This document shows, in pieces, positions 7,378 to 29,838 of a stretch of 36,816 nt of DNA. Under the pieces are notes generated by a model. The model was not told where the DNA came from, did not search any database, and was given only the letters and a program-made list of their open reading frames with translations. A program made the position numbers and the translations under genes. Source of the DNA: a virus; IMG/VR virus record IMGVR_UViG_3300037485_000671, positions 1 through 36,816 of that record; one strand, 5' to 3'. Each line of letters starts with the position of its first letter. Within the stretch, counting starts at the first letter, position 1.

Positions 7378-8408
7378 TAGATGTCACCGTATTCCTTCCC
7401 GGTCATAGATCGAATGTCATCCTTGAACCATTGACTGTTCATAAGCCCGGTTGCTTGCGCACGCCTGATGTCATCAACCGTGCTGTAAATCTTGGACAGG
7501 TATTGCTGCTGTGGTCCCAAAGCCGCAGACATAAAAGTCTGACCAATGAATCCAAGTACGCCCTGACTTTCTTCCGCAACCTTGCCAAGAGCAAACGAGA
7601 ACGGACGGAAAATGTAAGCAACCTGCCTTGACAATTCCGAATACATTGTTCCGCCAACAGCCGCAGCCCTGTTGAAGCCGATCATGCTTTCAGCCCATGC
7701 AACCTCTGCTTGCGTCTGCGCCCGGAGGGAACTTGCATACAACGCACCATTGGCTTGCGCCTCGCGCATGGTTGTAATCATCTTCGACAAATCGTCTTGC
7801 ACCTTCGCACCCATGAGGATGCCGCTGAATCGCCACGTTTGCTCAATGCGTTCGCTTGTGCGCTGAAAGGCTGAACGAAGCAAGGCAACCGCTCCAACGG
7901 CCAAGCCAATGCCGCCGCCAAAAGCAAGAAGCATCGGAGCAAGCCCTGCCGCCGAAATCCCAAGTCCCTTCAGGAACCCGGATGTCGCGCTGTTAGCGGA
8001 AGCCAACTGCGCAGCAGACATCAGCCCGGGGCGGGAAATGAACTGCTGCAATTCGCCAATCATGGACGTTGCGCCGGGAATCGCGCTCTGAATGTTTCGA
8101 TTGCCACCAAACCCGCGAATGGTCTGTTGTCTCCACAACTCAACATTTCGCCGCCAATCGTTCGCCATTCGTTCAAAGAGCATCGCAAACTGCCGACCGA
8201 AAACGGCGGTGTTTGCAATCTGCATTTGGGTGTACGGGCCAATGCCGGACGGATAGGCATTCAGGTTCGCACCAATACGCGCATTCGGGTTCGCCTGTGG
8301 CGTGAGCGGCGCGGGGCCACCACCAACATTACCGCTGCCACTACCGCCGCCACCACCACCGCCCAAGTCACGGACGTTGATGTTGATTGATCCAAGATCC
8401 TCTGCCAT
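7377..8408 (-). CDS. Putative tape measure protein (short)
   Basis: 343 residues with the ATG set by GGAGGTG 8 bases upstream. The N-terminus has a glycine/serine linker (GGGGGGGSGSGN), the middle a strongly hydrophobic stretch near residues 155-185 (AGLAPMLLAFGGGIGLAVGA), and the rest is helical and rich in A, Q and M. This mix plus the place after the frameshifted tail chaperones is typical of tape measure proteins, which set tail length. At about 1.5 angstroms per residue it would give a tail of only some 50 nm. No lytic domain is visible. Confidence 0.65.
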   Translation of the reverse strand: MAEDLGSININVRDLGGGGGGGSGSGNVGGGPAPLTPQANPNARIGANLNAYPSGIGPYTQMQIANTAVFGRQFAMLFERMANDWRRNVELWRQQTIRGFGGNRNIQSAIPGATSMIGELQQFISRPGLMSAAQLASANSATSGFLKGLGISAAGLAPMLLAFGGGIGLAVGAVALLRSAFQRTSERIEQTWRFSGILMGAKVQDDLSKMITTMREAQANGALYASSLRAQTQAEVAWAESMIGFNRAAAVGGTMYSELSRQVAYIFRPFSFALGKVAEESQGVLGFIGQTFMSAALGPQQQYLSKIYSTVDDIRRAQATGLMNSQWFKDDIRSMTGKEYGDI

Positions 8409-12619: not shown

Positions 12620-13261
12620 TTACCGCTTGAGGCGGCTGTTGATTGCCTTCTTGAACTCTTCCGGCTTGCCCGCGAACTCGCGCACAAGGTCGGACACCTG
12701 ACGCGCATCAATGTCCCCGGTGGGGAGCGAAGCGCGGCTCATGTCAATACGAACACCCATCGGATCGCGTGCGAACAGTTCGCGCCAACCCTCAATGGTC
12801 GAAGCCGGATCGCTGCTTGCTTCCAGTTCCGCAATCAGGCGCGGACGCTGCGAAGCAGCAATGCGGTAGCCCTCCTGCTCCATCAGGTCGATCTCGCGGC
12901 CAAACTTCTCGCGGCGCAGTTCGCTCTTGAAAGCGTTCAGTTCACGGGACAGACGGGCGTTCTCGCGGCGAATGGCAAAGACATCAACCTTGCCACGGCG
13001 CGAAGCGGGGAACATCGCGTTCACCTCTTCCTCGTCCTCTTCGCCAATGTCAATGCTGTCCGGTGCGCCTTCGTGGGAGTCGATGTCAATGTGGACACCC
13101 TCTTCCGCGAACTGCTCCGTCAGCATATCGTCAGCGGCCATCTCTTCCTTCTTCTCCTCGCCTTCGGCAGCGTAGGTTCCGAAAGCGCGCTTCATCTCGC
13201 CCTTCAGTTCCTCCATTGCCGCCTTCAGCGAATCGACTTCCTTACGGATATCGTCAGCCAT
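12620..13261 (-). CDS. Nested scaffold protein from internal start
   Basis: ATG at 13261 in the frame of the protease gene, with AAGGAAA 6 bases upstream, a far better ribosome site than that of the full-length gene. The product is 213 residues (MADDIRKEVDSLKAAMEELK...), helical and acidic. Mu (I/Z) and lambda (C/Nu3) make scaffold the same way from the 3-prime part of the protease gene. Separate expression is inferred from this SD and precedent. Confidence 0.65.
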   Translation of the reverse strand: MADDIRKEVDSLKAAMEELKGEMKRAFGTYAAEGEEKKEEMAADDMLTEQFAEEGVHIDIDSHEGAPDSIDIGEEDEEEVNAMFPASRRGKVDVFAIRRENARLSRELNAFKSELRREKFGREIDLMEQEGYRIAASQRPRLIAELEASSDPASTIEGWRELFARDPMGVRIDMSRASLPTGDIDARQVSDLVREFAGKPEEFKKAINSRLKR

Positions 13262-13822
13262 GTGCGTTTCCTTCTGCGTTCCGGGGACGTAAGTGGATTG
13301 CCCGCCGCCGACCGTCCCCATGTCGAAGCGAAGCGAACGTGAGAAGCGAACCAGTTCACCCTTGCGGGCAAAGTGCGTGTCAGGAAGCGGGCGGCGCGGG
13401 GTTTCCCGGCCAAGCAGCGCGACTTCCGAAAGATGATTTTGGTCAGCCCAAATTTCCGCGCTGCGGCGCGGGAATGCGTTAGTGGCAAGCAACTTGTCAA
13501 AGACGGGCTTTTCTACTTCGCAGTCACCCACGATGTAGCCAACGCCGTCCCTGTCCTCGTAACGCAGGGCGGTGAATCGCCCCACGGAAGACTTGGGTTC
13601 GTTGCCATCCTTTTCATGCATGACCACAAGGCGCGGCATGGAACCCTTTTCCATGTACCGCTGCGTGTTGCTCACGATGTCCTGTACCCGCTCGTTGTCA
13701 AACTTCTCCAACTCCGGATCATGGTCACCGTCAATCGCGGGGTCATACGCGCAGAACACTTCAAGCCCGTGAATAGTCACGGTCTTTCCGTCATCCGTTG
13801 TGTAGTGCGATGGGCTTGCCAT
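12620..13822 (-). CDS. Prohead protease with C-terminal scaffold
   Basis: 400 residues. Residues 1-185 form a protease-like domain as in Mu gpI: K-G-S-M-P-R-L-V-V-M-H, then G-R-F-T-A-L-R-Y and the F-P-R-R-S-A-E-I segment. From residue 188 on it is helical, very acidic and charged (E-L-K-G-E-M-K-R, then an EE/D-rich tract, then R-E-N-A-R-L-S-R-E-L-N-A-F), typical of scaffold. A perfect-looking internal start (see 12620-13261) suggests scaffold is also made alone. No SD precedes the ATG at 13822; a promoter whose +1 falls on that ATG is predicted. Confidence 0.82.
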   Translation of the reverse strand: MASPSHYTTDDGKTVTIHGLEVFCAYDPAIDGDHDPELEKFDNERVQDIVSNTQRYMEKGSMPRLVVMHEKDGNEPKSSVGRFTALRYEDRDGVGYIVGDCEVEKPVFDKLLATNAFPRRSAEIWADQNHLSEVALLGRETPRRPLPDTHFARKGELVRFSRSLRFDMGTVGGGQSTYVPGTQKETHMADDIRKEVDSLKAAMEELKGEMKRAFGTYAAEGEEKKEEMAADDMLTEQFAEEGVHIDIDSHEGAPDSIDIGEEDEEEVNAMFPASRRGKVDVFAIRRENARLSRELNAFKSELRREKFGREIDLMEQEGYRIAASQRPRLIAELEASSDPASTIEGWRELFARDPMGVRIDMSRASLPTGDIDARQVSDLVREFAGKPEEFKKAINSRLKR

Positions 13823-13864: not shown

Positions 13865-14983
13865 TTACTTCGCCTTCGCGCCGGGGCGGGACAGTCGGAG
13901 TTTATTCCTGATCGACTTAATTCGGTCCGTAATGTCCTGCATCGTGTCCATCGATGTCACGCCGTCCCCGTGAAACTGTCGAAGGTGCTTCATGTCTTCG
14001 ACGATTTCTTTCGCTTGACGATCGTACGGAGACGCGTACAACGCTGCGGCGGCGCGTTCGACTGCTGTAGCCGTATTGTCGGTATGCCGATAGTCCATCC
14101 ATGCGTCCGTCAGATTTTGGACTGCCTTGCGAAGATCAATCGCAAACTTCGCCTTCGCGCCGGGGCGGGAGGCCTTCATGCGCTTGGCAAGCATTTCCGA
14201 TGCGGTGATCGCAAGGTCGTGGTAGTAGTTCCACTTCTTGCCATCCGGGTTTGCGCTTGCAGCAGCGCGGGCATCCTTGACGATGTAGCGGAGTTCGGCT
14301 TCAGACGCAGCGGACAGCCATTCCTTCGCGGCGCGGAAGTCAAGGTGAACGCTGCCATCGCGCATGACCTGTTCGGCGCGCCCCATCGCCGCCTTCGCGC
14401 CGGGGCGGGAGAACAAATAGAACGCCTTGTGTTGCGCGTCCTTGATTAGTTCAATCGCCTGTTGCTCATTCCCATTTCGGAGCGCAATAATTGCACGCGA
14501 AACGGTGGAAGCAATGCTTCCTTCGTTTAGGAATGCACCGCGTTGAGCCATTTCGGAGGCATTCGCAAGGAGTTTTGCTGAACCCGCTTTGTCCTTTGGA
14601 CGATCCCGGATAATCCGAATTGCATCGTTCAAAATTTCATTGAAGTTGCTTGTCGCTTCATTCCACGCCATCTTCGCCTTCGCGCCGGGGCGGGAGAAGC
14701 CGGAAGTCTCCAATGCTGCAATGACAGCCCGCTTCGCTTTTTCTTCAGTCGAATACGAACGGATGTTTCCAAGGACATCTTCAAACTCATCAACCCCAGT
14801 AGAGCCACGCTGCACCACCCACGCCTTCCATCCACCGTTAGGATCGCGGGAAATCTTTGCAACCTTGTTGCCCTTGCGACCAACTTCAGTTGCAAACTTC
14901 GCCTTCGCGCCGGAGCGCGTAGCGTCAGCGGCAAAGCCAAGTCGTTCTGCAATTTCCTTCCGGGTGTTGCTCATGCTGCCCAT
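13865..14983 (-). CDS. Modular protein with five SRPGAKA hinges
   Basis: 372 residues from ATG 14983 (GAAAG 9 bases upstream; ATG 14974, MSNTRKEIAERLG, is the alternative). The N-terminus MSNTRKEIAERLGFAADATR is like a segment in the gene at 19938-20993. Five hinges (one degenerate RSGAKAKFA, three S-R-P-G-A-K-A plus a final one at the stop) divide helical modules of about 70-95 residues that are unlike one another. Hinge DNA is nearly identical copy to copy. It lies between the Mu F-like gene and the protease, so it may be a head or ejected internal protein. I do not recognise a family. Confidence 0.75.
   Translation of the reverse strand: MGSMSNTRKEIAERLGFAADATRSGAKAKFATEVGRKGNKVAKISRDPNGGWKAWVVQRGSTGVDEFEDVLGNIRSYSTEEKAKRAVIAALETSGFSRPGAKAKMAWNEATSNFNEILNDAIRIIRDRPKDKAGSAKLLANASEMAQRGAFLNEGSIASTVSRAIIALRNGNEQQAIELIKDAQHKAFYLFSRPGAKAAMGRAEQVMRDGSVHLDFRAAKEWLSAASEAELRYIVKDARAAASANPDGKKWNYYHDLAITASEMLAKRMKASRPGAKAKFAIDLRKAVQNLTDAWMDYRHTDNTATAVERAAAALYASPYDRQAKEIVEDMKHLRQFHGDGVTSMDTMQDITDRIKSIRNKLRLSRPGAKAK
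13871..13890 (-). repeat. SRPGAKA hinge repeat, copy 1
   Basis: DNA copy of the 20-base unit that reads gccttcgcgccggggcggga on the plus strand; it encodes the last residues before the stop codon of its gene. Position may be off by a base. Confidence 0.75.
14151..14170 (-). repeat. SRPGAKA hinge repeat, copy 2
   Basis: Exact 20-base copy of the unit; precedes a module starting KFAIDLRKAVQNL. Confidence 0.8.
14391..14410 (-). repeat. SRPGAKA hinge repeat, copy 3
   Basis: Exact 20-base copy; precedes a module starting MGRAEQVMRDGS. Confidence 0.8.
14676..14695 (-). repeat. SRPGAKA hinge repeat, copy 4
   Basis: Exact 20-base copy; precedes a module starting KMAWNEATSNFN. Confidence 0.8.
14901..14920 (-). 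repeat. SRPGAKA hinge repeat, degenerate copy 5
   Basis: Same unit with changes in its 3-prime part; encodes R-S-G-A-K-A-K-F-A next to the N-terminal head. Confidence 0.65.
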
Positions 14984-15024
14984 AGTAGTGATCTTTCGTG
15001 TAACCACAAGATGTAGGAAAGTAT

Positions 15025-16152
15025 TTATCCTGAAATGAAGCCCGGGTCGGGGACAAGCCCGTTGTCAATGAGCCGCTGTCGCTTACCGTTCTCTTGCTTG
15101 AGTGCTTCGTAGTCAACCTTGCCGTCTTCATCGCACCAACCGCGACTGACGGCGGTAGCGAGGCTGACAGGTGCCCACACGCATCGGCAGTTGAAGCCAA
15201 GCGGGGTAGGAATGCCCATCGCGTCAATCTGCTCCGTAGTCGCAATGAAGCCGTCCATTGCCTTATGCGTGTCCCGCGTTCGGTTGTCCTTGGCGGAACG
15301 GAACCGCATCAACGGGACAAACGCCTTGACACTTTCTTCCCGGGTTATGTCAAGTCGGCCCTGCGTCTGTGCGCGGTTCAGGTTGGTGCGGTACACCGTT
15401 TCCAACCGGGCTGCGGTCAGGTCGGTTCCCGTGGCAATGATGGTCTGCTCCACGAAGTCACCTACCCCAAGGTTCTTCAGTTCCTTCCCGGCGGCAGACT
15501 TCGTAACCTCTCCCTTGATGGTCTTTGCCAACAGGTCGCGGGTTGCCTCAATCTGTTCCTGCGTCATCCCGGTGACGAAGAACGTGCCTTGCACGGCCTT
15601 CTGCACCCCGGGCGTGCGGCGCACTTCCACGGCTTCCGGCGCACCCTTGACAACATCCATGCCCGGGACGGGCTTGGGCTTCGCGCCCGCCATCGCCGGG
15701 TAAATGATCTTTGCCAAGTCAGGGCTGCGCTCCGCCATCTTCAGCAGCGCGGTAGCGGCTTCGTCCTTGCGCATCTCGCCCGCCGCCTGAAACGCATTGG
15801 CAACAAGCGCGTCCCACTTCTGCCGGGTCAGCGGGATCAAATCTAGATAACGCTTGACAACTTCACGGGCGGGGCCGGGTTCAAAGCGCAGCAGGATTTC
15901 CGGCTCGTTGCGGTCGAACGTGACAGGCTTCGGGGGCGGGGGAACGCTTACCCCTGCCGTGTGCAGGGTGGCTTGCGCTCCCATCGCCCACGACACCAAC
16001 AGCAGCGCGGCGGTATCGCTTTGCCACTTGTCCCACTCCGGCCCGGGGTCTTTGCCAACAATCTCCGCCGCTACCGCTGCGCGGTAAGCGCGGTCGCCAT
16101 CTGCGTAGACGGCGCGGAACAGGTCGGAGATTGACCGGGCGCGTTGTGCCAC
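15025..16152 (-). CDS. Mu F-like minor head protein
   Basis: 375 residues, GTG start at 16152 just 3 bases after the portal stop (weak SD, coupling likely). The C-terminal third carries the phage head morphogenesis signature: Y-R-T-N-L-N-R-A-Q, then R-F-R-S-A-K-D-N-R-T-R-D-T-H-K-A-M-D-G and P-L-G-F-N-C-R-C. Mu gpF-like proteins are minor head proteins needed for assembly, probably packaged with the portal. Order portal then F-like is the usual Mu-type order. Confidence 0.88.
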   Translation of the reverse strand: MAQRARSISDLFRAVYADGDRAYRAAVAAEIVGKDPGPEWDKWQSDTAALLLVSWAMGAQATLHTAGVSVPPPPKPVTFDRNEPEILLRFEPGPAREVVKRYLDLIPLTRQKWDALVANAFQAAGEMRKDEAATALLKMAERSPDLAKIIYPAMAGAKPKPVPGMDVVKGAPEAVEVRRTPGVQKAVQGTFFVTGMTQEQIEATRDLLAKTIKGEVTKSAAGKELKNLGVGDFVEQTIIATGTDLTAARLETVYRTNLNRAQTQGRLDITREESVKAFVPLMRFRSAKDNRTRDTHKAMDGFIATTEQIDAMGIPTPLGFNCRCVWAPVSLATAVSRGWCDEDGKVDYEALKQENGKRQRLIDNGLVPDPGFISG

Positions 16153-16155
16153 GGG

Positions 16156-17616
16156 TTAGAGCATTCGGCGGCGGCTAAAGACTGCGGGGGCATCTGCGGG
16201 CGGCTGCTGCCCTTCCGGGGCTGCGGTCTGCCCAAGCATCTGCGACAACTGATCCGCGCCACCATTGGACGGGCCAAGGATGGTTTCGTCTTGCTTGGGT
16301 TCCGACAGGCCAAGCAGGTCGCGCACCTCGCGTTCGGACACCTTGCCACCCATCGCTACGAACTTCTCAATAGCGTCAAGTCGATCCTTCGGGTCGGGCC
16401 GCTCCGGGGCAAACACGAACCGCAGGGAAGACACTTCCTCTTCGGTCGCGCCAAGCATGGAAGCGATGACGCGCACGAAGTCGCAGGTGAGGCTGTCCGC
16501 AAGGCAATCCGCGTGGTAGCGGATGATGCGGGAAAGCGTGTCCGCGTGCAGGTCGGCAACGCCGGAACCAAGCCCGGTTGCCTGTGCTTCGCTTGACAGC
16601 GTTTGCCCGATAATGGCTTCCTTGATCTTGCCGGAGAACCAACCAACCAGTTCCATGAAGACCTGTGCGCGTCCCGCGTTCGGCTCCTTGATGTCGATGT
16701 CGTACAACTTGTCCGTACCCGACTGCGGCAACAGGACGCTGTTGTCGTTGGTCAGGTTGGCAAGCACGTTTTCCATCATCACGCGGCCTTCGTCCTGCCC
16801 AAGCGGGTAGTAGCCCACGCGAATACCCATTGCGTACCGCTCCGCGTAGGTGATCGCGTCTTGCAGAATCTCCTGCTTGGCAAGCCACATAAACCAACAG
16901 ATATCACGCGCACCCACACCCCGGTAGATGGATTCGGACGCGTTGGGATCGTTGAAGTCAGGGGCCGACACGAACACGCGATGCAGGATGATCGCCTTGC
17001 GTTCCTGCTCCGTGAAGATATGGACGCGGCTGTCAAATCCGATGTTCTGCGCAGACGGGCCATCGGACGAGTACGCCGCGCCCACGCGCATCGCAAGGTT
17101 TCCGCGCTGATCGTAGTTCAGGGTATCGGGGTGGAACGGATACCACTCCTTCACGCCAACGCCAAGCCGCGCATCCTTCTGATACACCACGTTGCACGCG
17201 GAGTTGCCATACCACACCGCTTCATGCATGGAACGGATGAAGTCGTTGCGCCGGGGCATCGCCTCAAAGATTTTGCCAATGCGGTCGGCAAGAGCCTGAA
17301 GCCGCTTGTTCTCCTTGTCATCGGCAACCACCGCCCATTCAAGCGAAGCAAGCGTCACCTGAAGCGAACGAAGGACACCTTCAATGTCCGCATCCGCCCG
17401 CATCATCATCTGATACTGCGGGTTCAGGCGGTAGGCAAGGCTGCTGTTGCGCAGCAACTTGTCCGCCGTTGTGAAGAACGAACGCTGAACCTCCACGCTC
17501 GTAGCAAGCGGGCTAGTGATGCCGCGCTTGATCGGGGCGGGCAGCGGCTTGCGCGGACGCTGCTTCGGGGTCAAGCCGTTCTGCATGGGGTTGGTGCCGT
17601 CTAGAGATTCTGCCAT
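16156..17616 (-). CDS. Portal protein, DUF935 / Mu gp29-like
   Basis: 486 residues, ATG with AAGGAA upstream. N-terminal I-T-S-P-L-A-T-S and the segment D-A-D-I-E-G-V-L-R-S-L-Q, then S-L-E-W-A-V, M-H-E-A-V-W-Y-G and a long helical region ending with a Q/P/A tail are typical of DUF935 portals. Twelve copies would form the DNA channel at the packaging vertex and dock the terminase. It is followed at once by the Mu F-like gene. Confidence 0.88.
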   Translation of the reverse strand: MAESLDGTNPMQNGLTPKQRPRKPLPAPIKRGITSPLATSVEVQRSFFTTADKLLRNSSLAYRLNPQYQMMMRADADIEGVLRSLQVTLASLEWAVVADDKENKRLQALADRIGKIFEAMPRRNDFIRSMHEAVWYGNSACNVVYQKDARLGVGVKEWYPFHPDTLNYDQRGNLAMRVGAAYSSDGPSAQNIGFDSRVHIFTEQERKAIILHRVFVSAPDFNDPNASESIYRGVGARDICWFMWLAKQEILQDAITYAERYAMGIRVGYYPLGQDEGRVMMENVLANLTNDNSVLLPQSGTDKLYDIDIKEPNAGRAQVFMELVGWFSGKIKEAIIGQTLSSEAQATGLGSGVADLHADTLSRIIRYHADCLADSLTCDFVRVIASMLGATEEEVSSLRFVFAPERPDPKDRLDAIEKFVAMGGKVSEREVRDLLGLSEPKQDETILGPSNGGADQLSQMLGQTAAPEGQQPPADAPAVFSRRRML

Positions 17617-17659
17617 AGTGCATTCCTTCGTATCACAGGTTCAACCATTAAAGACCAAA

Positions 17660-19549
17660 TCAGGATAGAAGTGCGCCAACCATGTAATTTCCAAAAGCCA
17701 TGTATGCATTTTCAGAACTCATGGCAGTCATTTGCCAACCTGAAGCACCGCCCGGAGTTGGATTCGGAACCGATGTCACACCCGAATCCGTCCATGTCGT
17801 GCTTGCAGACAGGGCACTTGTTCGCAGGTGAACGCTATACGGGGTAAGCGTTCCCGCGTTGACATAGAAGGAATACTGATAGCCCGCGCTCAATTGAGCC
17901 GCTGATCGGTACGCCTCAAAGTCACAGTAGGTGATGTTTCTTCCGTCATTGATACTGGCGGTTGCCCACGCTTTTGCGTTGTCGTTGAAGATCGGGCGGT
18001 TGACATACCACGCTTCTCCACCGTCAGCATTGGGCGTGGGGTGGGTACTGGTAATCAGGAACGCAAGATCATTAGCCGGGTAACCAAGTGCAGTCCATTC
18101 CGTTCGGAACACCGAAATGATTGAATCAAGGTTGGTCGTGTACGTTGCGCCCGTTGCGCCGTCATTGATTCCCGATTGCGTAAGCACAAGAACCCGCCCC
18201 GTGCCTCCGGCAACAATCTGACGCTGACGCAGTTCCCGAAGGGTAGCGCGAACAAGCGTTGTGTTGCTTGCCATGTCGCTAGCAAGTTCGGCGGTCGTGC
18301 GTCCGCTGTAGTAGGTCAAATTCGTTACCGAATATCCCTTGCCAGTTTGGAACATCAACGAGTGCCAAAAGAACGCCGCAGGGCCGACAACGTAATCGGC
18401 TGTCGTTCCGCTCAAGTATCCATCGACATTGCAAGCAAACGAAACGGCGATGTTGGAGACTTCGGGAGCGTTGAAATTGAGTGTTGCTGCGGTTGAAGCA
18501 ATCCCATTCGTCCCGGTGTTTGTGGAAATCGGAGTTGCCGAACGAGCAACAATCGTGTTCACGCCTCTCGCAACGCTCAACTTGAATTGACCGCTGCCGG
18601 AAGCAAACGTCCCGTACACAACGCGATACTGAAGCGGAACACCGCCCGAACCACTTCCTGCCGCAAACGAGGTGCTTGCAGCGGGAACAATTCTCGCCCC
18701 GTTCGCTGCGCTCGTATAGGTGTTGGTCGGGGTAGCAGCATTGACAAACGCCGCGTCAAACGTATTCCCGTTTGGCTTGAAGTTCGTAAATGTGCCGACC
18801 GCGCTGCTCAACGCAACCGCATTCGCATCCGATGTTGCAACCTTTGCATTCAGCGCAGACATGGTTCCGTTGCCGCTTGCGCTTGCATCAAAAGTATTGC
18901 CCCTCCAACTGAACAACGTCATGTTCGTAAAGGTTCCGCCCGAAAATGCGCTTCCGTTCCCGGCAACGTTCTGTGCAATTGGCGCAAGGCACGTTGCATA
19001 CTGCAATGCACCTCTGTATGCGAGTGCTTCCCGGAATCCAGTAGAGATGCCGCAGTTGTTGTACCCGGTGTTCGAATCGCCAATGGTGATTACGTCAACC
19101 GAATCGGTTCCTGCCACGACATCCGAAATGAACGCGTTTGCGCGGCGGGAGCCGTACAGGCCAGTTTGCATACTGTCCACGGAGCCAACGCGCTGCGCCC
19201 AAAAGATTTCGCCGCTCGCTGCGTTGTCACACGCGACAAACTGTATGCGGGCCGTAGCGGTCACCACCGCGCCATCGGTCGTAGGGCACAGGCCGTCACC
19301 CGTGGAGATCTTTCCGCCCGCACGCAACTGCATGAACTCGCTGTTCTGAAGCACAACGAGATCACCCGTTTCGGCGTGGTACACGCTGTCAAATTCGCGG
19401 ACGCTGCCGTCCGTCACGCCAAGCACGATTTCCTGCTCCGTGTCGGCAACCACCAACTTGAACGGGTCAGCGGTCGTTGCCTGAACGCAAGAGAACGGGA
19501 GGATGTTCCCGGCGGCGGTGAAGTTCGGCGTATGTCCTGCGGTACTCAT
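17660..19549 (-). CDS. Decoration-like domain fused to an SGNH-type hydrolase
   Basis: 629 residues, ATG with GGGAG upstream. Residues 1-122 match the decoration-like genes at 19552-19938 and 12190-12600 (T-P-N-F-T-A, I-V-L-G-V-T-D-G-S, A-C-D-N-A-A-x-x-E-I). Residues 150-629 look like an SGNH/GDSL hydrolase: block I I-G-D-S-N with Ser159, block III G-I-N-D (N462, D463), a possible His574 in Y-S-V-H-L (the usual Asp three residues before it is not there) and a C-terminal helix. About 300 residues, beta-rich, sit between blocks I and III and may bind glycans. It probably displays an esterase on the capsid surface; activity is uncertain. Confidence 0.75.
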   Translation of the reverse strand: MSTAGHTPNFTAAGNILPFSCVQATTADPFKLVVADTEQEIVLGVTDGSVREFDSVYHAETGDLVVLQNSEFMQLRAGGKISTGDGLCPTTDGAVVTATARIQFVACDNAASGEIFWAQRVGSVDSMQTGLYGSRRANAFISDVVAGTDSVDVITIGDSNTGYNNCGISTGFREALAYRGALQYATCLAPIAQNVAGNGSAFSGGTFTNMTLFSWRGNTFDASASGNGTMSALNAKVATSDANAVALSSAVGTFTNFKPNGNTFDAAFVNAATPTNTYTSAANGARIVPAASTSFAAGSGSGGVPLQYRVVYGTFASGSGQFKLSVARGVNTIVARSATPISTNTGTNGIASTAATLNFNAPEVSNIAVSFACNVDGYLSGTTADYVVGPAAFFWHSLMFQTGKGYSVTNLTYYSGRTTAELASDMASNTTLVRATLRELRQRQIVAGGTGRVLVLTQSGINDGATGATYTTNLDSIISVFRTEWTALGYPANDLAFLITSTHPTPNADGGEAWYVNRPIFNDNAKAWATASINDGRNITYCDFEAYRSAAQLSAGYQYSFYVNAGTLTPYSVHLRTSALSASTTWTDSGVTSVPNPTPGGASGWQMTAMSSENAYMAFGNYMVGALLS

Positions 19550-19551
19550 GT

Positions 19552-19938
19552 TTAGTTCTCCCAACTCTGAACGCGGAATGCCCACACAATTTCATTAATG
19601 GCGGCGTTGTCACACGCCTGAAGGAATGCCCGTTCTCCCGGGTCAATAGGAAGCACCCTGCCATCGGCTGACGGCTTCAACAGGTCGCCCGCGACAACAT
19701 CGCCATCGGTCTGCACCTGTACGAACCGACCGTTCTGCAAACTGACGGAGCCGCCCGCAATCGCGTGTTCCTTCGCGTCGAACTTGCGGGTACTGCCATC
19801 GGTCACGCCTAGGACAATCTGACTCGCGCTGTTGGCAACGAGGAGTTGAAACGGGCCGGACGTATCCATGCGCACAAGCCGAAACGGATACACGGTTTCG
19901 TTCGCGGTGAAGTTAGGGATGTACCCGGCGGTAGACAT
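19552..19938 (-). CDS. Head decoration-like protein, paralogue 2
   Basis: 128 residues (MSTAGYIPNFTANETVYPF...), ATG overlapping the previous stop by one base (TAATG). It aligns over its whole length with the N-terminus of the downstream fusion and with the gene beside the capsid: P-N-F-T-A, I-V-L-G-V-T-D-G-S, L-Q-N-G-R-F-V-Q, A-C-D-N-A-A-I-N-E-I. Tandem position just before the fusion suggests duplication. Likely a capsid surface protein. Confidence 0.75.
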   Translation of the reverse strand: MSTAGYIPNFTANETVYPFRLVRMDTSGPFQLLVANSASQIVLGVTDGSTRKFDAKEHAIAGGSVSLQNGRFVQVQTDGDVVAGDLLKPSADGRVLPIDPGERAFLQACDNAAINEIVWAFRVQSWEN

Positions 19939-20993
19939 TAGATTTCGCCCCTGCGCTTCATGTCAAGCGCGATTGCCACAGCCTGATCGTGTGGCTTGCC
20001 TTCGTCCATAAGTTTGCGAATCTTGCGGGACAGGGCATCGTCTTCGCCCGCGCTGATCTTCTCGCCTTCGCGGATAGCGTTGCGAGACTTCGCGCCGGGG
20101 CGGGAAGAATTGAATTTCTTCCATTCTGCCGCGTACTGCCGAAGTTCGCCCGTGTCCCGATCCTGACGGTCATACAGGTTAATCAGCATCGTGAATGCAC
20201 GATCCAAGTCACGATCCGAAAGCGAGGGACGCAGGTTGAGGTTTGCGCGAATCTTCCTTGCGGTTTCCCTGCCGCTTTCGGTTTGCGTAAGCCAAACCTG
20301 CGCGATGCCAAACGCGGCCTTCGCGCCGGGGCGGGAAAATCGTCCCTTTGATTCTGTAATGCTCTTGCCTTCAAACATCAGGTTGCGCGATTTGTTGTCC
20401 GCAGTCACCATAACTTGCGCGGCAACGGTGTTGTCGGGCCAATACCGCTGCGGCTTTTCCCGCGATGGATCTAGCACAACAATACCCGTATAAAGCGTTC
20501 TGCCGTCATCCTTGTTGATTCGCTTGTAACTGCGGAATGTCTCTCCACCAATGACGATTTCTTTGGTGTAGTTGACACTCGCATAAGGCGATGTCCGCTC
20601 GGCTTTGATCTTTGCGTCAGGTCGCGCAAACACGCCAAGACGCGCTGCGATTTCCTTCTTCATGTCGCTCATGCCGTTCTTTTCCTTGTTGTCCATTTGA
20701 TCTACCTTTCGCTTTGCCCATGCCTTCCCGGCATCGCCACCCCACAGAAGCCACGCGATGTAGCCCGCGCTGTCCTTGCCCCATCCCTCGCCCTGCTTGT
20801 CAACTTCGTGCCGTGCGAAGTACGAATGCATTCGCTTGACGGTTTCGGGGGACAGGTTCTTGCGGTTGCTGATGTCGCGGGCGCGTGCAACGCCGATAGC
20901 CGTGCCGCCTCTCCCGTGCTTCTCGCGCAGTTCTAAACCACGCGCAGCGTTCGTTGCCATCTCTTCCGTAGGCTTGAAGTCGATGTCAGGCAC
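19938..20993 (-). CDS. Phage structural-associated protein with SRPGAKA hinges
   Basis: 351 residues, GTG start. Residues 1-100 carry a conserved phage pattern, N-A-A-R-G-L-E-L-R-E-K-x-G-R-G-G-T and S-Y-F-A-R-H-E-V-D, ending S-A-G-Y-I-A-W-L-L-W-G-G-D-A-G. An internal M-S-D-M-K-K-E-I-A-A-R-L-G near residue 108 matches the start of the modular gene at 13865 and has its own GGAA site, so it may be a second start. Two good and one poor SRPGAKA hinges follow; the C-terminal K-P-H-D-Q-A-V-A-I-A-L-D-M-K-R-R-G-E is seen in other phage proteins. Function unknown. Confidence 0.75.
   Translation of the reverse strand: MPDIDFKPTEEMATNAARGLELREKHGRGGTAIGVARARDISNRKNLSPETVKRMHSYFARHEVDKQGEGWGKDSAGYIAWLLWGGDAGKAWAKRKVDQMDNKEKNGMSDMKKEIAARLGVFARPDAKIKAERTSPYASVNYTKEIVIGGETFRSYKRINKDDGRTLYTGIVVLDPSREKPQRYWPDNTVAAQVMVTADNKSRNLMFEGKSITESKGRFSRPGAKAAFGIAQVWLTQTESGRETARKIRANLNLRPSLSDRDLDRAFTMLINLYDRQDRDTGELRQYAAEWKKFNSSRPGAKSRNAIREGEKISAGEDDALSRKIRKLMDEGKPHDQAVAIALDMKRRGEI
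20086..20105 (-). repeat. SRPGAKA hinge repeat, copy 6
   Basis: Copy of the 20-base unit with one mismatch near one end; encodes S-R-P-G-A-K-S. Confidence 0.75.
20317..20336 (-). repeat. SRPGAKA hinge repeat, copy 7
   Basis: Exact 20-base copy; encodes S-R-P-G-A-K-A-A-F. A further degenerate copy (F-A-R-P-D-A-K-I) is near 20605-20630. Confidence 0.8.
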
Positions 20994-21023: not shown

Positions 21024-22490
21024 TCAAGCAAAGAATGGGCGTTTCGCCCCCGTAGCCTTGAACAGCCTTCCAATCGCGTCCGGGTTCTCAATGCGCTTGG
21101 GAACCTTCTCGCCGATGGACAGGGAGCCGCGCACGGCTTCGCCGCACAGGTCAACGATGGCATCCACCGTGTCATCGTGCGCCCCGGCGGGGAACGCAAG
21201 CATTTCGTCTAGCACAGGCTGAAACGATGGCAACACCTTGCCAGTTCCGTCTATGGGGAACATCAACTTGCCCTGCTCCACGAACGGTTGCGCCCCGGCT
21301 GCGCGTAGGTGCTTGTCCGTGGTGCGCTCCACCGCAACCATCGGTTGGCTTGTCATCTCCCGGAATTGATCGAAGATGCCCTTCTGCGGCCCGTTCGCCT
21401 CTGCAAGCACCACCGATGCGCCGCGTCTTGACAACAGCGCGGCGGCTTGTTTGGCAAACACGGGGAACGATTCGCGCACGCGGAGGATGTCGGTCAGGTA
21501 CAGGCGGCGCGTGGCATCGACTTCACCCACGATGCAGACGGAGTAGTCAGGGTCATCGCGCTCTTGCGCCTTCTTGCCATAGCCCCAATCCAACGCCGCA
21601 ATGACGCGTGTTACTTTCGGCAAGGTTTCGTGCTTGTAGTGCGTCACCCATTCCGGGCGGAACACCAACAGGTCACTTGACAACGGCACAAGTTCGTAGG
21701 CGCGGGCGTAAGCCATCGCGCCCATCTCCTTGCGCTTGGCTGCGAGGATGTCCGGCGTAAACACCTCGCCCCACGGGCTATTCGTGCCGATGCACGGGCG
21801 GCGGAGGAGCGTTTCGGCTTCCTCGCATTCGCGCCGCCATTGCGCGGTTATGTCATCCGTGTGGAATGGGGTTGCGCTGCGCCACACCCGGGAAGGGTGT
21901 TCCGCGCTTGGGTCAAGCATGGGAAGCCAAATGTTGCCAACGGCTTCCTTCACCTGTTCACGCAGCGCGGGCTGCAACACGGCGTTCCGCAGGTCGCAGA
22001 TATCGTCAAGCCACAGAACGTCAGCGCGTCCGCCCGTGCGCCCGAAGATGCCCGAAGCCTGTACGGACGGGTCACGGCGCGGGGCAAGCCCCGGGGATAT
22101 GACGCTCCACGCAGTCACCGTGTCTTCCCCGGGCTTCAGTTTGACTTCCGGGAACGTGGCTGCGTAGGCCGGGGAGCGAATGATGTCACGGATGAAACGG
22201 CTTGTAGCGGCTGCGGCTTCGTCATTCTGCCCGATGATCTTGAAGCGCGTTTGCGGGCGCACCCCAAGCCACCACGCAGTTAGGTAGGACAACGTGGAAG
22301 TCTTCGCATGACCGCGTGGCAACTCCGCGTACCAAGCGTGAGTTGACAACGCAACGCCAAGCAGTTCCCGCTGCAACCCTGATACGGGTCGGCCCAAGCA
22401 AAGCGCGAGGAACGCGGCGGGGTTGTCCCGGGCTGCTTGGATCGCCTCTTGTGGGGTCAGGGCTTGCGCTTTGGCTTTGCGGGGGGGCAA
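21024..22490 (-). CDS. terL: Large terminase subunit
   Basis: 488 residues, TTG start with AAGGAG 5 bases upstream. The ATPase domain has a variant Walker A, L-P-R-G-H-A-K-T-S (57-65), and Walker B V-L-W-L-D-D (158-163). The C-terminal nuclease has A-A-L-D-W-G-Y (Asp301), V-L-A-E-A-N-G and H-D-D-T-V-D-A, the usual acidic clusters. It packages DNA through the portal and cuts it. It overlaps the small subunit by 34 bases. Confidence 0.93.
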   Translation of the reverse strand: MPPRKAKAQALTPQEAIQAARDNPAAFLALCLGRPVSGLQRELLGVALSTHAWYAELPRGHAKTSTLSYLTAWWLGVRPQTRFKIIGQNDEAAAATSRFIRDIIRSPAYAATFPEVKLKPGEDTVTAWSVISPGLAPRRDPSVQASGIFGRTGGRADVLWLDDICDLRNAVLQPALREQVKEAVGNIWLPMLDPSAEHPSRVWRSATPFHTDDITAQWRRECEEAETLLRRPCIGTNSPWGEVFTPDILAAKRKEMGAMAYARAYELVPLSSDLLVFRPEWVTHYKHETLPKVTRVIAALDWGYGKKAQERDDPDYSVCIVGEVDATRRLYLTDILRVRESFPVFAKQAAALLSRRGASVVLAEANGPQKGIFDQFREMTSQPMVAVERTTDKHLRAAGAQPFVEQGKLMFPIDGTGKVLPSFQPVLDEMLAFPAGAHDDTVDAIVDLCGEAVRGSLSIGEKVPKRIENPDAIGRLFKATGAKRPFFA

Positions 22491-24104: not shown

Positions 24105-24608
24105 CTAGCGTATGCGGAGCGAAGTTCCACGGGGAAGCAGTTCACAACCGGGAACTTTCTCGCCAGATTCAAGCACGGCGCGGATGGCATCCTTGTCCGG
24201 CTCCTGCACGATCCGGGTCAGGATGGGCGGCAGGGTTACTTCCGGGTCGATGCGTAGGGGCTGCTTGCCTCCGTTGCCCGCCACGGTGAACGCAAAGCGT
24301 GTGGTTTGGAACTTGGTCTTGCCCGTGCGCTCCATCGCTTCCTTCAGCCGTTCCCGGAGCCTATCCGAAAGCGCGGTGTCGGTATCGGCAAGTGCGCGAA
24401 GCCTCTTGGCTTCCTGCGTCCGCGCCGCTGCGCGTGCGGTCAGTTCGGTAATGACGGATGCGTAGCCTTCCGCTTTCTGCTCAAGCGCGGCATCCATCCC
24501 GGCAAGATGCTCTTCAAGCGCGGCGGCTGCTTCCGGGGAATCAACACCACCTTCAAGCATGATGGAAACGATGCTTTCAATCTCTGTCGTGAGTGCGTAC
24601 AGGCTCAT
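24105..24608 (-). CDS. Siphovirus Gp157-like protein
   Basis: 167 residues, ATG overlapping the previous stop by 4 bases, AAGGAG upstream. Helical and coiled first half (M-S-L-Y-A-L-T-T-E-I-E-S-I-V-S), then A-K-R-L-R-A-L-A, K-T-K-F-Q-T-T-R-F-A-F-T-V-A and P-E-V-T-L-P-P-I-L: the pattern of Gp157 phage proteins (Pfam PF05565), reported in phage resistance contexts and often next to single-strand annealing genes, as here. Confidence 0.8.
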   Translation of the reverse strand: MSLYALTTEIESIVSIMLEGGVDSPEAAAALEEHLAGMDAALEQKAEGYASVITELTARAAARTQEAKRLRALADTDTALSDRLRERLKEAMERTGKTKFQTTRFAFTVAGNGGKQPLRIDPEVTLPPILTRIVQEPDKDAIRAVLESGEKVPGCELLPRGTSLRIR

Positions 24609-24877
24609 GTGTTGTTCTCCTTGAAGCAGTCCCACCCCAAATCTTTCGCAACGCTGCTTGGCAAAATTTCAAACGCTCCGGCAAGCGAGCGACTTGCGCA
24701 AACCATCCGCCTCGCCTCATCGCGCTCGGCGCGGAGCCGTTCGATCTCGTCGGCGGCGAGCAAGTTTGTGCGCGTCAATTCAAAACCAAGTTGAGGTTTG
24801 CCAAACTCGTTAATCCGGGAGGTTGGTTGGTAGAAAGACTCGCGCCGTAGCCGGGTCACGATGTCGGATGCTGTCAT
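24605..24877 (-). CDS. Small protein with GWDCFK C-terminal module
   Basis: 90 residues, ATGA-coupled at both ends. Residues 37-90 hold A-A-D-E-I-E-R-L-R-A-E-R-D-E-A-R-R-M-V-C and then G-W-D-C-F-K-E, a module shared with genes at 26121 and 30373. The N-terminus (D-I-V-T-R-L-R-R-E-S-F) is unlike theirs. Third gene of the ERF operon. Function unknown. Confidence 0.72.
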   Translation of the reverse strand: MTASDIVTRLRRESFYQPTSRINEFGKPQLGFELTRTNLLAADEIERLRAERDEARRMVCASRSLAGAFEILPSSVAKDLGWDCFKENNT

Positions 24878-25194
24878 GGCTTCAACCTCCAAACCTTGAT
24901 GCTTCGTCCGTGCGTAGACGCACGCTCTGACGGGACTACCTGCCCCGTCCATTCAAACTGCCCACGGAACACGCTTCCGGCGGCGTTGCCCAACTCCGCG
25001 TAGTTCATCCCGATCTGCGCCATGCGGAACGCAACATCATCGGAAGTGACGCTGCCCTTGGATATGGCAATTCGATGAGCAAGGTTCTTCGCAGTAGCGA
25101 GGAGTTGCGGACAGGCGGCAGCGGCTCTTGCCATGCCGCTTTCCTTGCGGCGTAGTGTTTCGGCGTAGTCAAACAGGTCAGAAGGGCAATGCAT
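24874..25194 (-). CDS. Small protein, possible winged-helix domain
   Basis: 106 residues overlapping the ERF gene end by 17 bases. Region 45-106 reads G-S-V-T-S-D-D-V-A-F-R-M, G-S-V-F-R-G-Q-F-E-W-T-G and a C-terminal H-G-R-S-I-K-V-W-R-L-K; this pattern recurs in phage replication/recombination operons and looks like a winged helix. DNA binding is inferred from that and from the operon. Confidence 0.68.
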   Translation of the reverse strand: MHCPSDLFDYAETLRRKESGMARAAAACPQLLATAKNLAHRIAISKGSVTSDDVAFRMAQIGMNYAELGNAAGSVFRGQFEWTGQVVPSERASTHGRSIKVWRLKP

Positions 25195-26008
25195 CGGATT
25201 CCTCCTTCCGTGCTGCCGGAGCGGAGGGGGTCAGCACGCGCATGACTTCTAGCGCGGGGCCGACACGCGCAACGTCAAGGCGCAGGGTCTTGCCCGTGGC
25301 TTCCTTGGCAACTTCGGCATAGCCGTCAACCTTGGTGGAGATCCAAACCCGGCCATGCTCCCCGGCGGCGTGAATAGCGTGGGGCTTGCCCGGGCGCGTG
25401 GTCACGCGCAGGATTTCAAAGTCGCCTTCGTACTCGTCCGGGTACTTGTCCATCACGCCCGCAGACGGGCTAGGAGCCGCCTTGGCGGGTTCCTGCTTCT
25501 CCGGGGCTTCCCGGGCGGGTTCCGGCACAGGGGCCGCTCCCCGGGCATTCTCCGGGCGGAACGTATCCCGCGTGGTGCGCTGCTGCGCCTTGCGCCGCTC
25601 GTTGTGTTCCTGACGGTCTTCGTCCCCGTCATCGTCCTCATGGGGGTCACCCACAATCGCGCACAGGCTGATGAGGCTGTACCGCCGCAGGTAGGTGACC
25701 ACGCTTCCGGCCTGTTGCACGTTGCTGTTCCCGGCGATGGGAAACGCCATCGTTTCCCGCATCCATTCGCCGGACGCGTGAATCAGGCTTGTGGTAACGG
25801 CCACGCGGTTTTCAGCAATCGCCACGCTCTGCATCAGCGCGATGCCCTGCTTTGCCATCGGCTTTCGCACGGCATTCAGCACGGCGGCAAGCGTTGCGAA
25901 GCGTGACTTGAAGTGCGGGTTCACGCCGTCAAGTTCGGGGTTGTCAATCTCAAGATGCGCCTTCGCAAGTGCTGCTGCGATGGCTCCGGTTGTCTCGCTC
26001 GTTTCCAT
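25178..26008 (-). CDS. erf: ERF-family single-strand annealing protein
   Basis: 276 residues from ATG 26008 (AAGGAGA upstream). Core residues 20-130 match ERF proteins: F-A-T-L-A-A-V-L-N-A-V-R-K-P, V-T-T-S-L-I-H-A-S-G-E-W-M, Q-A-G-S-V-V-T-Y-L-R-R-Y-S-L and the acidic D-D-D-G-D. It pairs complementary single strands in phage recombination and genome circularisation. A long P/A/E linker (140-185) precedes a C-terminal domain of about 80 residues that may bind partners. First gene of a four-gene operon. Confidence 0.9.
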   Translation of the reverse strand: METSETTGAIAAALAKAHLEIDNPELDGVNPHFKSRFATLAAVLNAVRKPMAKQGIALMQSVAIAENRVAVTTSLIHASGEWMRETMAFPIAGNSNVQQAGSVVTYLRRYSLISLCAIVGDPHEDDDGDEDRQEHNERRKAQQRTTRDTFRPENARGAAPVPEPAREAPEKQEPAKAAPSPSAGVMDKYPDEYEGDFEILRVTTRPGKPHAIHAAGEHGRVWISTKVDGYAEVAKEATGKTLRLDVARVGPALEVMRVLTPSAPAARKEESDALPF

Positions 26009-26056
26009 GTGTGTCTCCTTGCCCGGTTCGCCGGGTGCGTTGCCGCATCGTGCGGC
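26009..26056 (-). promoter_or_regulatory. Structured leader of the ERF mRNA
   Basis: Starts with GCCGCA-CGA-TGCGGC (26056-26042), at the predicted +1, so again a 5-terminal hairpin, but without the AGGTC loop. Then CCCGG-CGAA-CCGGG (26035-26022) and AAGGAGACACAC before the ATG. Confidence 0.7.
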
Positions 26057-26062
26057 GGTTTC

Positions 26063-26090
26063 ATTATACACCCGGCTACGCCGGGGTCAA
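26063..26090 (-). promoter_or_regulatory. Consensus promoter of the ERF operon
   Basis: TTGACC (26090-26085), 16-bp spacer containing the palindrome CCGGC-GTA-GCCGG, perfect TATAAT (26068-26063). Confidence 0.85.
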
Positions 26091-28238: not shown

Positions 28239-29252
28239 TTACATCATCTTCCCTGCGATGGCGAACGCGTCAGCGGTCGCCTCTGCGGTCTGCCCAACCC
28301 ACGCGGCGTACTTGCGCTCCGCTGCGTCCTTGGTGCGGACAGCCCATCCGGCGCGAAGGTGCTGAATTGCGCTTGTAGCGGCATTGGTGGCCGTCCACAG
28401 GTTCGCGCCGTATTCCTGCGATTCGCGGTCAAACGTCTGCGCGGCGTGCGCAAGGAAAGCAACTGCCTTTTCCTTACGGTTGAGTTCCCAACCGTTGGAC
28501 GGGGCGGCGGGAATCTCGCCGTCAAGTTGCGTCAGGACATCAGACCACAGGTTGCGCACGGTTTCACGGTTGACCTGCTTCGTTGCCATCGCGGTGGCAA
28601 TCTTGCGCCCGTTGTCAATGTCGGAGAACCAACGCTTGATGTCGGTTGCAAGGCTCTCAACCTTGGTTCCGATGTTGAGCGTGTGCCGGAAAGACCATCC
28701 GGCGCGGCCCGACAGGGCAGCGTGGAACGTGTTGCTGCACACCACGCGAACGGAGGTGGGCAGCACGCGCAGGGCCATCGTGCCATCGTGCGAGTTGCCA
28801 ATCATCAGATAGGGCTGCGCAATGTCGCCGCGTCCGGTCATGTCAACAGACGGGGCGCGAAGCAGCATCCACACCTTGCGACCACCGCGAATGCTCCCGG
28901 CGGATTCGACTTCCACGCCCTGCGAATCGCCTGCGAGGCGGAAGCCGTATGCAAGGTCGGCAAGCGTGGTGTTCTGAATCGGCTGATAGTCGCCGCCGAC
29001 CACCGCGAGGACGGAATGGTCATCGGAGCGGACAAGCATCTTGCTGCCGTCCGTGGACACGCGGTACTCGTCATCCTCGCCGGGGTTGTAGATGCCCGTG
29101 AGCGTGTCCGACTCTTCAACCGTCCATTCCATCCCGGCGATGCGGAGCGCGGCGAACGGGTTCGGCGCACCCTTGACCACCGTTCCAAGACCGTGCCACG
29201 CGGCGTTGTCTGCGAGAACCAAACCATCGTTGCTGTAGATTTCTGCTGCCAT
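28239..29252 (-). CDS. DUF932 / TIGR03299-like phage protein
   Basis: 337 residues from ATG 29252 (AGGAGA upstream). N-terminus has A-W-H-G-L-G-T-V-V, the diagnostic start of DUF932 (phage/plasmid-like TIGR03299) proteins, then D-H-S-V-L-A-V-V-G-G-D-Y, F-R-L-A-G-D-S, I-R-G-G-R-K-V-W-M and T-V-R-N-L-W-S. The family is common in phages and plasmids and has no proven function. Monocistronic: AGGTT-leader promoter in front, terminator behind. Confidence 0.85.
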   Translation of the reverse strand: MAAEIYSNDGLVLADNAAWHGLGTVVKGAPNPFAALRIAGMEWTVEESDTLTGIYNPGEDDEYRVSTDGSKMLVRSDDHSVLAVVGGDYQPIQNTTLADLAYGFRLAGDSQGVEVESAGSIRGGRKVWMLLRAPSVDMTGRGDIAQPYLMIGNSHDGTMALRVLPTSVRVVCSNTFHAALSGRAGWSFRHTLNIGTKVESLATDIKRWFSDIDNGRKIATAMATKQVNRETVRNLWSDVLTQLDGEIPAAPSNGWELNRKEKAVAFLAHAAQTFDRESQEYGANLWTATNAATSAIQHLRAGWAVRTKDAAERKYAAWVGQTAEATADAFAIAGKMM

Positions 29253-29309
29253 TGCTAGTGTCTCCTGTTTCCCCAAACCGGGGGAGCGGTGCGGGCAACC
29301 TGCCCACAC
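29253..29309 (-). promoter_or_regulatory. Double-hairpin mRNA leader, AGGUU loop
   Basis: Hairpin 1: GTGTGGGC, loop AGGTT, GCCCGCAC (29309-29289, one U.G). Hairpin 2: TCCCC, loop CGGTTT, GGGGA (29285-29270). Then AACAGGAGACACTAGCA and the ATG. Confidence 0.75.
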
Positions 29310-29313
29310 CGGA

Positions 29314-29341
29314 ACTATACACCCCCTTGCGGCGTGGTCAA
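29314..29341 (-). promoter_or_regulatory. Promoter with GC-rich spacer (gene 28239)
   Basis: TTGACC (29341-29336), 16-bp spacer, TATAGT (29319-29314). The upstream box aatttcgacagattt starts 14 bases from the -35 box (29355-29369, plus strand). Confidence 0.8.
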
Positions 29342-29379
29342 GGGGGTGGATGGGAATTTCGACAGATTTATTTGGCGGG

Positions 29380-29838
29380 CTATTCGTGTTCGTAAACCCA
29401 CCTGCCGGAAGCCGGGGCCGGGGCAAGGTTGATGACTGCGCCCGAACGCTGCCCGGGCGTAGCCCACACGCGCTCAATGGCAAGAACGGCTATCTGCCGA
29501 TCATCGTGGTACGCAATCCCGGTCAACGCATCCCCGATAGCGCGAATCAATTTGTCGCAGTCTGCCTTGCCGGGACGCGCTGCCGCGCTCTGCTTCACCG
29601 TTCCATCTTTGCGGAAGTGCGATGCGGGGCGCACGAAGCGCACGCACGCGTACAAGGCAACGTCACCTTCAAACATCGGGCAACTCTGCGCGGTCGCTGC
29701 GTCACTCACGCAAGCGCGCCACGGCTTTACCTTCTTGCTGTTCTCTAGCATGATGGTGCGGCCCGTTTTCAGCGTCACCAATCGCTTGCTGCCTTGCGCG
29801 GCGGGATCGCCGTCAACGTAGATGGTTGCGCTTGTCAT
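29380..29838 (-). CDS. rusA: RusA-like Holliday junction resolvase
   Basis: 152 residues. R-P-G-K-A-D-C-D-K-L-I-R-A-I-G-D-A-L-T-G near residues 88-107 and Y-H-D-D-R-Q-I (110-116) give the RusA acidic residues (Asp93, Asp95 and Asp112/113), which cut four-way junctions. Lys/Arg early strands fit as well. Last gene of the nine-gene overlapping operon; its start overlaps the previous stop (ATGA). Confidence 0.88.
   Translation of the reverse strand: MTSATIYVDGDPAAQGSKRLVTLKTGRTIMLENSKKVKPWRACVSDAATAQSCPMFEGDVALYACVRFVRPASHFRKDGTVKQSAAARPGKADCDKLIRAIGDALTGIAYHDDRQIAVLAIERVWATPGQRSGAVINLAPAPASGRWVYEHE

Follow-up and report, generated by a model that had tools for sequence, protein, structure and literature searches.

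Two late genes of uncultured tailed phages as arrays of exchangeable modules joined by a near-invariant coding repeat, a probable adapter for in-frame recombination

The stretch of DNA analysed here (the window) is the whole of a 36,816-base virus record, IMGVR_UViG_3300037485_000671 of IMG/VR, and the element under study is a short repeated coding block, the hinge, which recurs in two late genes of the minus strand, termed gene A (13865-14983; 372 amino acid residues) and gene B (19938-20993; 351 residues). Both strands of the window were scanned for the hinge 20-mer TCCCGCCCCGGCGCGAAGGC. Five exact copies were found, all on the minus strand (13872-13891, 14151-14170, 14391-14410, 14676-14695 and 20317-20336), against 5e-7 expected from base composition. 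One further copy carries a single mismatch (20086-20105) and reads S-R-P-G-A-K-S, and another carries three (14901-14920) and reads T-R-S-G-A-K-A; the sequence A-R-P-D-A-K-I at 20607-20627 is a hinge remnant recognisable at the protein level. All copies of the 20-mer are confined to the two genes. The next-best match in the window (8017-8036) has 5 mismatches, and with a position-specific hinge score the other minus-strand open reading frames (ORFs) of the window gave nothing comparable (best 1.9, vs 16-36 at the hinges listed). A preliminary description of this DNA had reported five exact copies, one with one mismatch and two or so degenerate ones, in these two genes only; the first two counts and the confinement stand, and besides these there are the three-mismatch copy and the protein-level remnant. 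Its statement that the unit always encodes S-R-P-G-A-K-A does not hold, as one copy ends in S and one starts T-R-S.

Gene A lies between a MuF-like gene and a protease/scaffold-like gene, a position referred to below as slot 2. Its frame is open from a GTG at 15007, and the ATG at 14983 is an equally possible start. The ATG opens a leader (14921-14983) reading M-G-S-M-S-N-T-R-K-E-I-A-E-R-L-G, which is common to gene B and many relatives. There follow hinge 0 (14900-14920; T-R-S-G-A-K-A, the copy with 3 mismatches in the 20-mer), module A1 (14696-14899), hinge 1 (14675-14695, exact), module A2 (14411-14674; relatives in loci L017 and L092), hinge 2 (14390-14410, exact), module A3 (14171-14389), hinge 3 (14150-14170, exact), module A4 (13892-14149; no clear relative found) and hinge 4 (13871-13891, exact), with the gene ending one codon later. 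Relatives of module A3 occur at varying ranks in L007, L010, L019, L028, L037, L052, L145, L146, L168 and others. Modules A2, A3 and A4 are helical and module A1 is predicted to consist of four strands and a helix, so that the earlier account of helical modules is not true of all of them; their length, given there as 70-95 residues, is corrected to about 68-90.

Gene B occupies slot 1, between the large terminase (TerL) and portal regions. It begins with an N-terminal domain (20682-20993; phrog_2859 region), followed by an internal leader, M-S-D-M-K-K-E-I-A-A-R-L-G-V (20631-20672). A segment M-S-x-x-x-K-E-I-A-x-R-L-G is thus present in both genes, as had been noted; it lies at the beginning of gene A and, in gene B, behind the N-terminal domain. 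The degenerate hinge A-R-P-D-A-K-I (20607-20627) then precedes module B1 (20337-20606), a relative of which stands in L026 ahead of the N-terminal domain. An exact hinge (20316-20336), module B2 (20106-20315; no separate relative identified), the one-mismatch hinge S-R-P-G-A-K-S (20085-20105) and a C-terminal trailer (19941-20084) containing the phrog_2423 motif E-G-K-P-x-x-Q-A-V-A-I-A-L complete the gene. All these features are on the minus strand.

The structure model of the whole gene A product was poor (mean predicted local distance difference test score, pLDDT, 52), with the hinges forming low-confidence, loop-like stretches. Module A1 modelled alone gave four strands and a helix at pLDDT 74. 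This model had no match in the PDB at E 0.001 or better (Foldseek). With VIA-align the best Z was 7.0, an AP2 domain scored 5.1 and arm-type integrase domains 4.0 and 3.6; these scores are within the level that the tool calls common, and no fold family is claimed for the modelled module.

Relatives were sought in cultured phages, viral contigs and genome contigs. A tblastn search with gene A against 50,697 cultured phage records gave no match, hinge DNA was absent from cultured phages except for one chance match, and a scan of viral contigs with gene B as query gave no matches. The other viral-contig scans led to 190 scored loci, the window included, and all totals derived from them are lower bounds. 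No qualifying ORF was present in 43 of the 190 loci; 166 ORFs qualified, and removal of the 28 that were identical or contained left 138. Two or more hinges are held by at least 126 genes in at least 114 loci, with at least 465 hinges in total. Hinges are spaced at a median of 81 residues, most modules measuring 64-100 residues from hinge to hinge, and array length varies among loci. With a cut-off of 95% nucleotide identity across half the length of the shorter locus, the 114 loci fall into 62 virus groups. Two pairs of loci, L069/L136 and L145/L172, are each two stretches of one contig and were counted as separate loci. The arrays occupy two fixed slots: 45 are between TerL and portal, 77 between MuF and protease, and 4 could not be assigned (122/126 placed). 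The contig with L069 and L136 (IMGVR_UViG_3300011115_000594; 35-kb) has portal and MuF genes near both ends, about 95% identical, with different arrays; it may represent a circular genome whose assembly ran beyond the starting point in a mixture of strains. The scan of genome contigs gave 3 matches, of which L193, on 6,486 bases of a Nitrospiraceae assembly, was the sole real hinge ORF. This locus may be a binned virus and is a weak hint of a host; the host of the phage group was not found.

Codon use in the hinges was examined with search patterns in which third codon positions were left open. Over 465 hinges, serine, arginine and proline are encoded by TCC in 90% (background 20%), CGC in 90% (41%) and CCC in 94% (28%), and the following G, A, K and A by GGC in 98% (47%), GCG in 94% (34%), AAG in 97% (87%) and GCG in 78% (34%). 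Among 35,484 between-locus pairs of hinges with the exact protein sequence, 44% are identical in DNA, vs 0.065% expected under the same codon use; a pair differs at 0.86 positions on average, where background codon use predicts 4.5. Pairs within a locus scarcely exceed this level (49% of 294 identical), and hinge identity is therefore not due to local homogenisation. Relative to the serine codon, the conserved block spans about -3 to +28. At unchanged S, R, P, G, A or K residues the codon is kept in 93% of cases in hinges (114 loci) vs 35-48% (medians) in homologous flanking genes, compared in the loci with a match (MuF 91, portal 87, TerL 65, protease 43). These figures indicate that the hinge DNA itself is conserved, and not only the peptide. 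A scan for hinges with AGY serine codons returned 40 stretches, of which those in only 6 contigs, from about 3 viruses, were real arrays; AGY makes up 35% of serine codons in array-bearing genes, unlike hinges. In the fetched loci all exact 19-mers (318/318) are read in the S-R-P-G-A-K frame, and no exact hinge copy was found on the strand opposite to the array gene.

For comparison of the modules, internal modules were limited to 35-115 residues, since without a size limit the clustering linked long segments into chains (one cluster of 62). The 290 internal modules form 133 families, 73 of them single. Fifty-eight families were seen in at least two loci, and among them 56 have neighbours of more than one type; 30 of the 58 are present in both slots. 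Neighbours change in all 53 families that occur in two or more virus groups, and on both sides in 43. Between related arrays 38 distinct internal differences were counted in which both flanks have an identity of 94% or more, 26 of them replacements and 12 gains or losses; one of the 38 (L136/L069) lies within a single contig.

Module exchange was followed at the DNA level through near-identical segments (at least 95% identity over at least 90 bp), compared between groups. Segment ends fall inside a hinge in 62% of 337 cases on the left and 50% of 327 on the right, vs 13% for random placement. Left ends cluster at the start of the hinge block and right ends at its end, as is expected if the exchanged unit is hinge-module-hinge. 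Module A1 illustrates such a unit: it shares 246 bp at 99.2% with L008, all mismatches being in the left hinge block, and stands first in the window array and third in L008, where the two viruses are 67% identical in TerL, 65% in portal and 41% in MuF protein. Among locus pairs sharing segments of at least 97% identity, a marker protein is less than 80% identical in 41/138. L054 and L110, from different data sets, are 99.8% identical over 3,876 bp and 99.0% over 2,394 bp on the two sides of a site at which L110 is without exactly one L054 module; the L110 hinge there matches one L054 hinge in its left part and the following one in its right part, the crossover lying in an 8-base stretch. A one-module difference likewise separates L149 and L135. 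As judged from these alignments, module content has been changed in frame by recombination between hinge copies.

The preliminary description had proposed that hinge DNA is more alike than its peptide requires and that the hinge serves for shuffling modules. The first point is borne out by the codon conservation described above. The second agrees with the variable order and neighbours of modules, the families that cross between slots, the hinge-to-hinge segments and the chimeric hinge at a deletion; the comparison of module order between relatives, which it had suggested, found families recurring in different orders, neighbours and slots.

The nature of the array proteins was assessed from gene order and domain content. 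In the window, gene B comes after the gene for the large terminase (21024-22490), the portal gene (Portal_Mu; 16156-17616) lies between genes A and B, and gene A is flanked by the gene for the MuF-like minor head protein (15025-16152) and the protease/scaffold-like gene (12620-13822), all on the minus strand; the role of the last is proposed from order, as its PHROG match is weak and of unknown function. The gene B N-terminal domain is found inside capsid-annotated genes of Roseobacter phage CRP-821 and Synechococcus phage S-CBS1, and in Vibrio phage 1.214.O near the start of a gene located two genes before the capsid gene. In the relatives it stands beside the protease region or on the portal C-terminus (L017, L042), and in L017, L077 and L193 the trailer follows it directly, with no modules between. 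This domain was also seen to change partners (L017:3821-4258; L042; L233; L234). Both slots being among head genes, and the N-terminal domain being linked elsewhere to portal, protease/scaffold or capsid genes, a location in the head interior is suggested; the array proteins are probably packaged inside the head and possibly injected as cargo. Nearly every module is an orphan: for 63 array proteins 3 Pfam families were matched, none an enzyme, PADLOC matches were weak, and PHROGs matches were of unknown function. A few modules are similar to hypothetical proteins of about 68-100 residues that Rhodobacter and Rhizobium phages encode separately, away from their head genes; this would fit small accessory proteins having been recruited as cargo. 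A motif C-W-x-G-Y-E-A-V-G-T-K...D-G-K-T-V-P-N-C-V-P-K was observed in 20 array ORFs (e.g. L057, L058 and L073) and matches hypothetical proteins of cyanophage S-RIM14.

Taken as a whole, the data make it highly likely that a family of uncultured tailed phages builds two late proteins from exchangeable modules joined by near-invariant DNA. The hinge probably acts as an in-frame recombination adapter for swapping modules of these putative head-internal cargo proteins. The two late genes consist of small domains in series, and every domain is bounded by copies of a single DNA block of about 21-30 bp, YTCCCGCCCCGGCGCGAAGGCGAAG-(A/T)T..., which reads (x)S-R-P-G-A-K-A-x-(M/F). As the sequences show, recombination from hinge to hinge removes, adds or replaces whole domains and leaves the frame intact, whether inside one genome, from one of the two genes to the other or among phages that infect together. 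The enzyme would most likely be the phage's own Erf-type annealing recombinase, together with an exonuclease and a RusA resolvase. Candidates for all three are encoded on the minus strand of the window: an Erf-like single-strand annealing recombinase (25178-26071), an exonuclease-like protein that may be its partner (phrog_7339; 34010-34924) and a RusA-like Holliday junction resolvase (29380-29838). A Mu Gam-like end-protection protein (24105-24635) is encoded on that strand as well. One study reports that the minimal length for pairing is 23-27 bp with Red-beta but 31-34 bp with RecA, and that an Erf/Exo pair matches Red in efficiency (PMC3945230). The hinge block is close to the length required by phage annealing proteins, in keeping with annealing by an Erf-type protein. 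Hinge DNA would stay fixed while its surroundings diverge because only canonical hinges remain exchangeable.

Several points weigh against this reading. About 38-50% of the segment ends fall outside scored hinges; the hinges at breakpoints are not significantly nearer to the canonical DNA than others (1.20 vs 1.30 mismatches, p = 0.33); and the support for degenerate hinges keeping neighbours together is weak (3/6 vs 12/71, p = 0.08). Hinge DNA may be under direct selection for another reason. A place in the head and a role as cargo are deduced solely from the order of the genes and from fusions of domains. The contigs derive from metagenome assemblies, where repeats can mislead. Misassembly at repeats is countered by 15 array cores that are identical in different data sets; this number was obtained from the 18 of 88 cores that recur, after removal of those representing the same contig twice (L006/L171 and L009/L022) and of one pair from a single data set (L115/L184).

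Four other explanations were considered. A protease tag at the hinge had been the alternative reading of the preliminary description. The arrays could be polyproteins in which the hinge is mainly a cleavage site for the prohead protease, releasing small internal head proteins. The position of slot 2 directly before the protease/scaffold gene, the loop-like setting of the hinges in the gene A model and the great constancy of the residues R-P-G-A-K-A all favour cleavage. It leaves the fixed synonymous codons unexplained, however, and no hinge-like motif was found in the other ORFs of the window, capsid, portal and protease included. Moreover, 15 of the 116 arrays with a stop end 18 or fewer residues past a hinge, where a cut would free almost nothing. 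We regard cleavage as the principal role of the hinge as unlikely, although it may take place at the hinge alongside exchange through the adapter. A general motif for the head protease was also looked for and set aside: the portal C-terminus F-S-R-R-R-M-L is suggestive, yet many relatives' portal proteins end without it, and the protease segment R-F-S-R-S-L-R-F-D-M resembles the hinge only partly.

A fixed short DNA sequence at every junction and the exact gain and loss of cassettes could also mean that the hinge is the target of a site-specific recombinase, as in integrons or shufflons. Against this, no integrase or invertase domain was detected in the window ORFs scanned (Pfam/PHROGs), and the exact 19-mers share a single frame with none inverted. 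Such a target is improbable, though an enzyme of the host or some other phage enzyme could act on it. One profile match to a "DNA invertase" was rejected, as it covers only the helix-turn-helix of an 89-residue protein.

The hinge plus module could instead be a selfish mobile unit tolerated by the array proteins, as the variable array length and the very many orphan module families, most of them without a Pfam match, might suggest; the modules are short and diverse, though, no common element besides the hinge was noticed, and the arrays are confined to two slots, which makes a selfish unit very improbable. A plain linker inherited vertically in a codon-biased lineage, for which only the lean of background codons in array genes to C or G endings speaks, can practically be dismissed, being contradicted by the codon conservation (4.5 differences per pair predicted, 0.86 observed, with flanking genes near codon saturation), by the differing module order and by the chimeric hinge; the opposite of a biased linker between fixed modules was found, with 318/318 copies in one frame and modules that are not fixed in relatives.

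The adapter reading was compared with known systems. In integrons a shared DNA site links cassettes, drawn from an open pool, into arrays that vary, and the phage arrays likewise combine an open module pool with a common site; they differ in that no integrase was found in the window ORFs scanned, the cassettes are fused in one frame and the site is itself coding. Unlike shufflons and other invertible arrays, they have no exact inverted copies of the joining sequence. Internal head proteins of the T4 type are located inside the head and their genes lie near those for scaffold and protease; the array proteins are similar as possible head-internal cargo encoded close to scaffold and protease genes.

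The gp38 adhesins of T-even phages carry conserved glycine-rich motifs in alternation with hypervariable segments, and these segments undergo reshuffling (PMC6630733; PMC12529663); gp38 is a single tail-fibre adhesin, in which the glycine-rich motifs number five and the variable segments four (PMC12529663). The likeness lies in the exchange of variable segments through conserved motifs within one gene. Here, in contrast, the arrays are located among head and packaging genes and not in a tail-fibre adhesin, and involve two genes, a varying number of unrelated domains from at least 133 families and one DNA block across diverged viruses. Iyer et al. (2017; PMC5512222) describe the polyvalent proteins of phages and conjugative elements as multidomain proteins of variable domain order whose genes lie near virion genes and MuF, and propose that they are packaged and injected. 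The arrays resemble them in being multidomain, with an architecture that varies within the range of 2 to 15 domains used to define that class, and in lying among late virion genes with MuF. Polyvalent proteins, which combine disparate enzymatic and nucleic-acid-acting domains, are recognised largely by known enzymatic ones, whereas the arrays are nearly without Pfam matches and have a fixed DNA junction; neither 'linker' nor 'short motif' appears in the text of PMC5512222. The arrays are placed in neither class, as they are no tail adhesin and polyvalent-type enzymatic domains were not detected (Pfam, PADLOC). Phage mosaicism through short stretches of identity, by which diverged phages exchange DNA with Rad52-like annealing recombinases (PMC3945230), and the shuffling of protein fragments or domains (PMC10684548) have been described. 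There the identity is incidental and whole genes or occasional domains are involved; here a dedicated, repeated and conserved block stands between the units. No account of the hinge was found in the literature searched, which covers few subscription journals, and the exact string SRPGAKA occurred in no paper there.

The chances seem about even that the arrays represent a common-adapter cassette system, in which an open pool of well over 100 unrelated small domains would circulate among viruses as in-frame units joined by one coding block, would be held constant by recombination at near the minimal pairing length of the phages' own annealing recombinase, and would serve to vary head-packaged cargo aimed at host or defence targets. 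In effect, such a cassette system would operate inside genes as an integrase-free integron. Although mosaicism of phage proteins is known, the in-frame joining of domains is rarely visible; here the joint is a conserved piece of DNA across diverged viruses, and module exchange can therefore be watched in sequence data. If the array proteins are packaged and injected, every module becomes a candidate for a small effector or for a counter-defence protein, and searches with the hinge as a tag would find many more of them.

Other genes of the window were noted. The replication half of the record encodes a DUF932 protein (28239-29483) and a primosomal-like DUF1376 protein (32638-33546). Between the portal gene and gene B, the genes at 19552-19938 and 17660-19585 have a common M-S-T-A-G-x-x-P-N-F-T-A start and the same domain, and the longer one matches phrog_673. 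The longer gene has a large extra C-terminal part, and the pair seems to have arisen by duplication of a small head protein, with a fusion in one copy.

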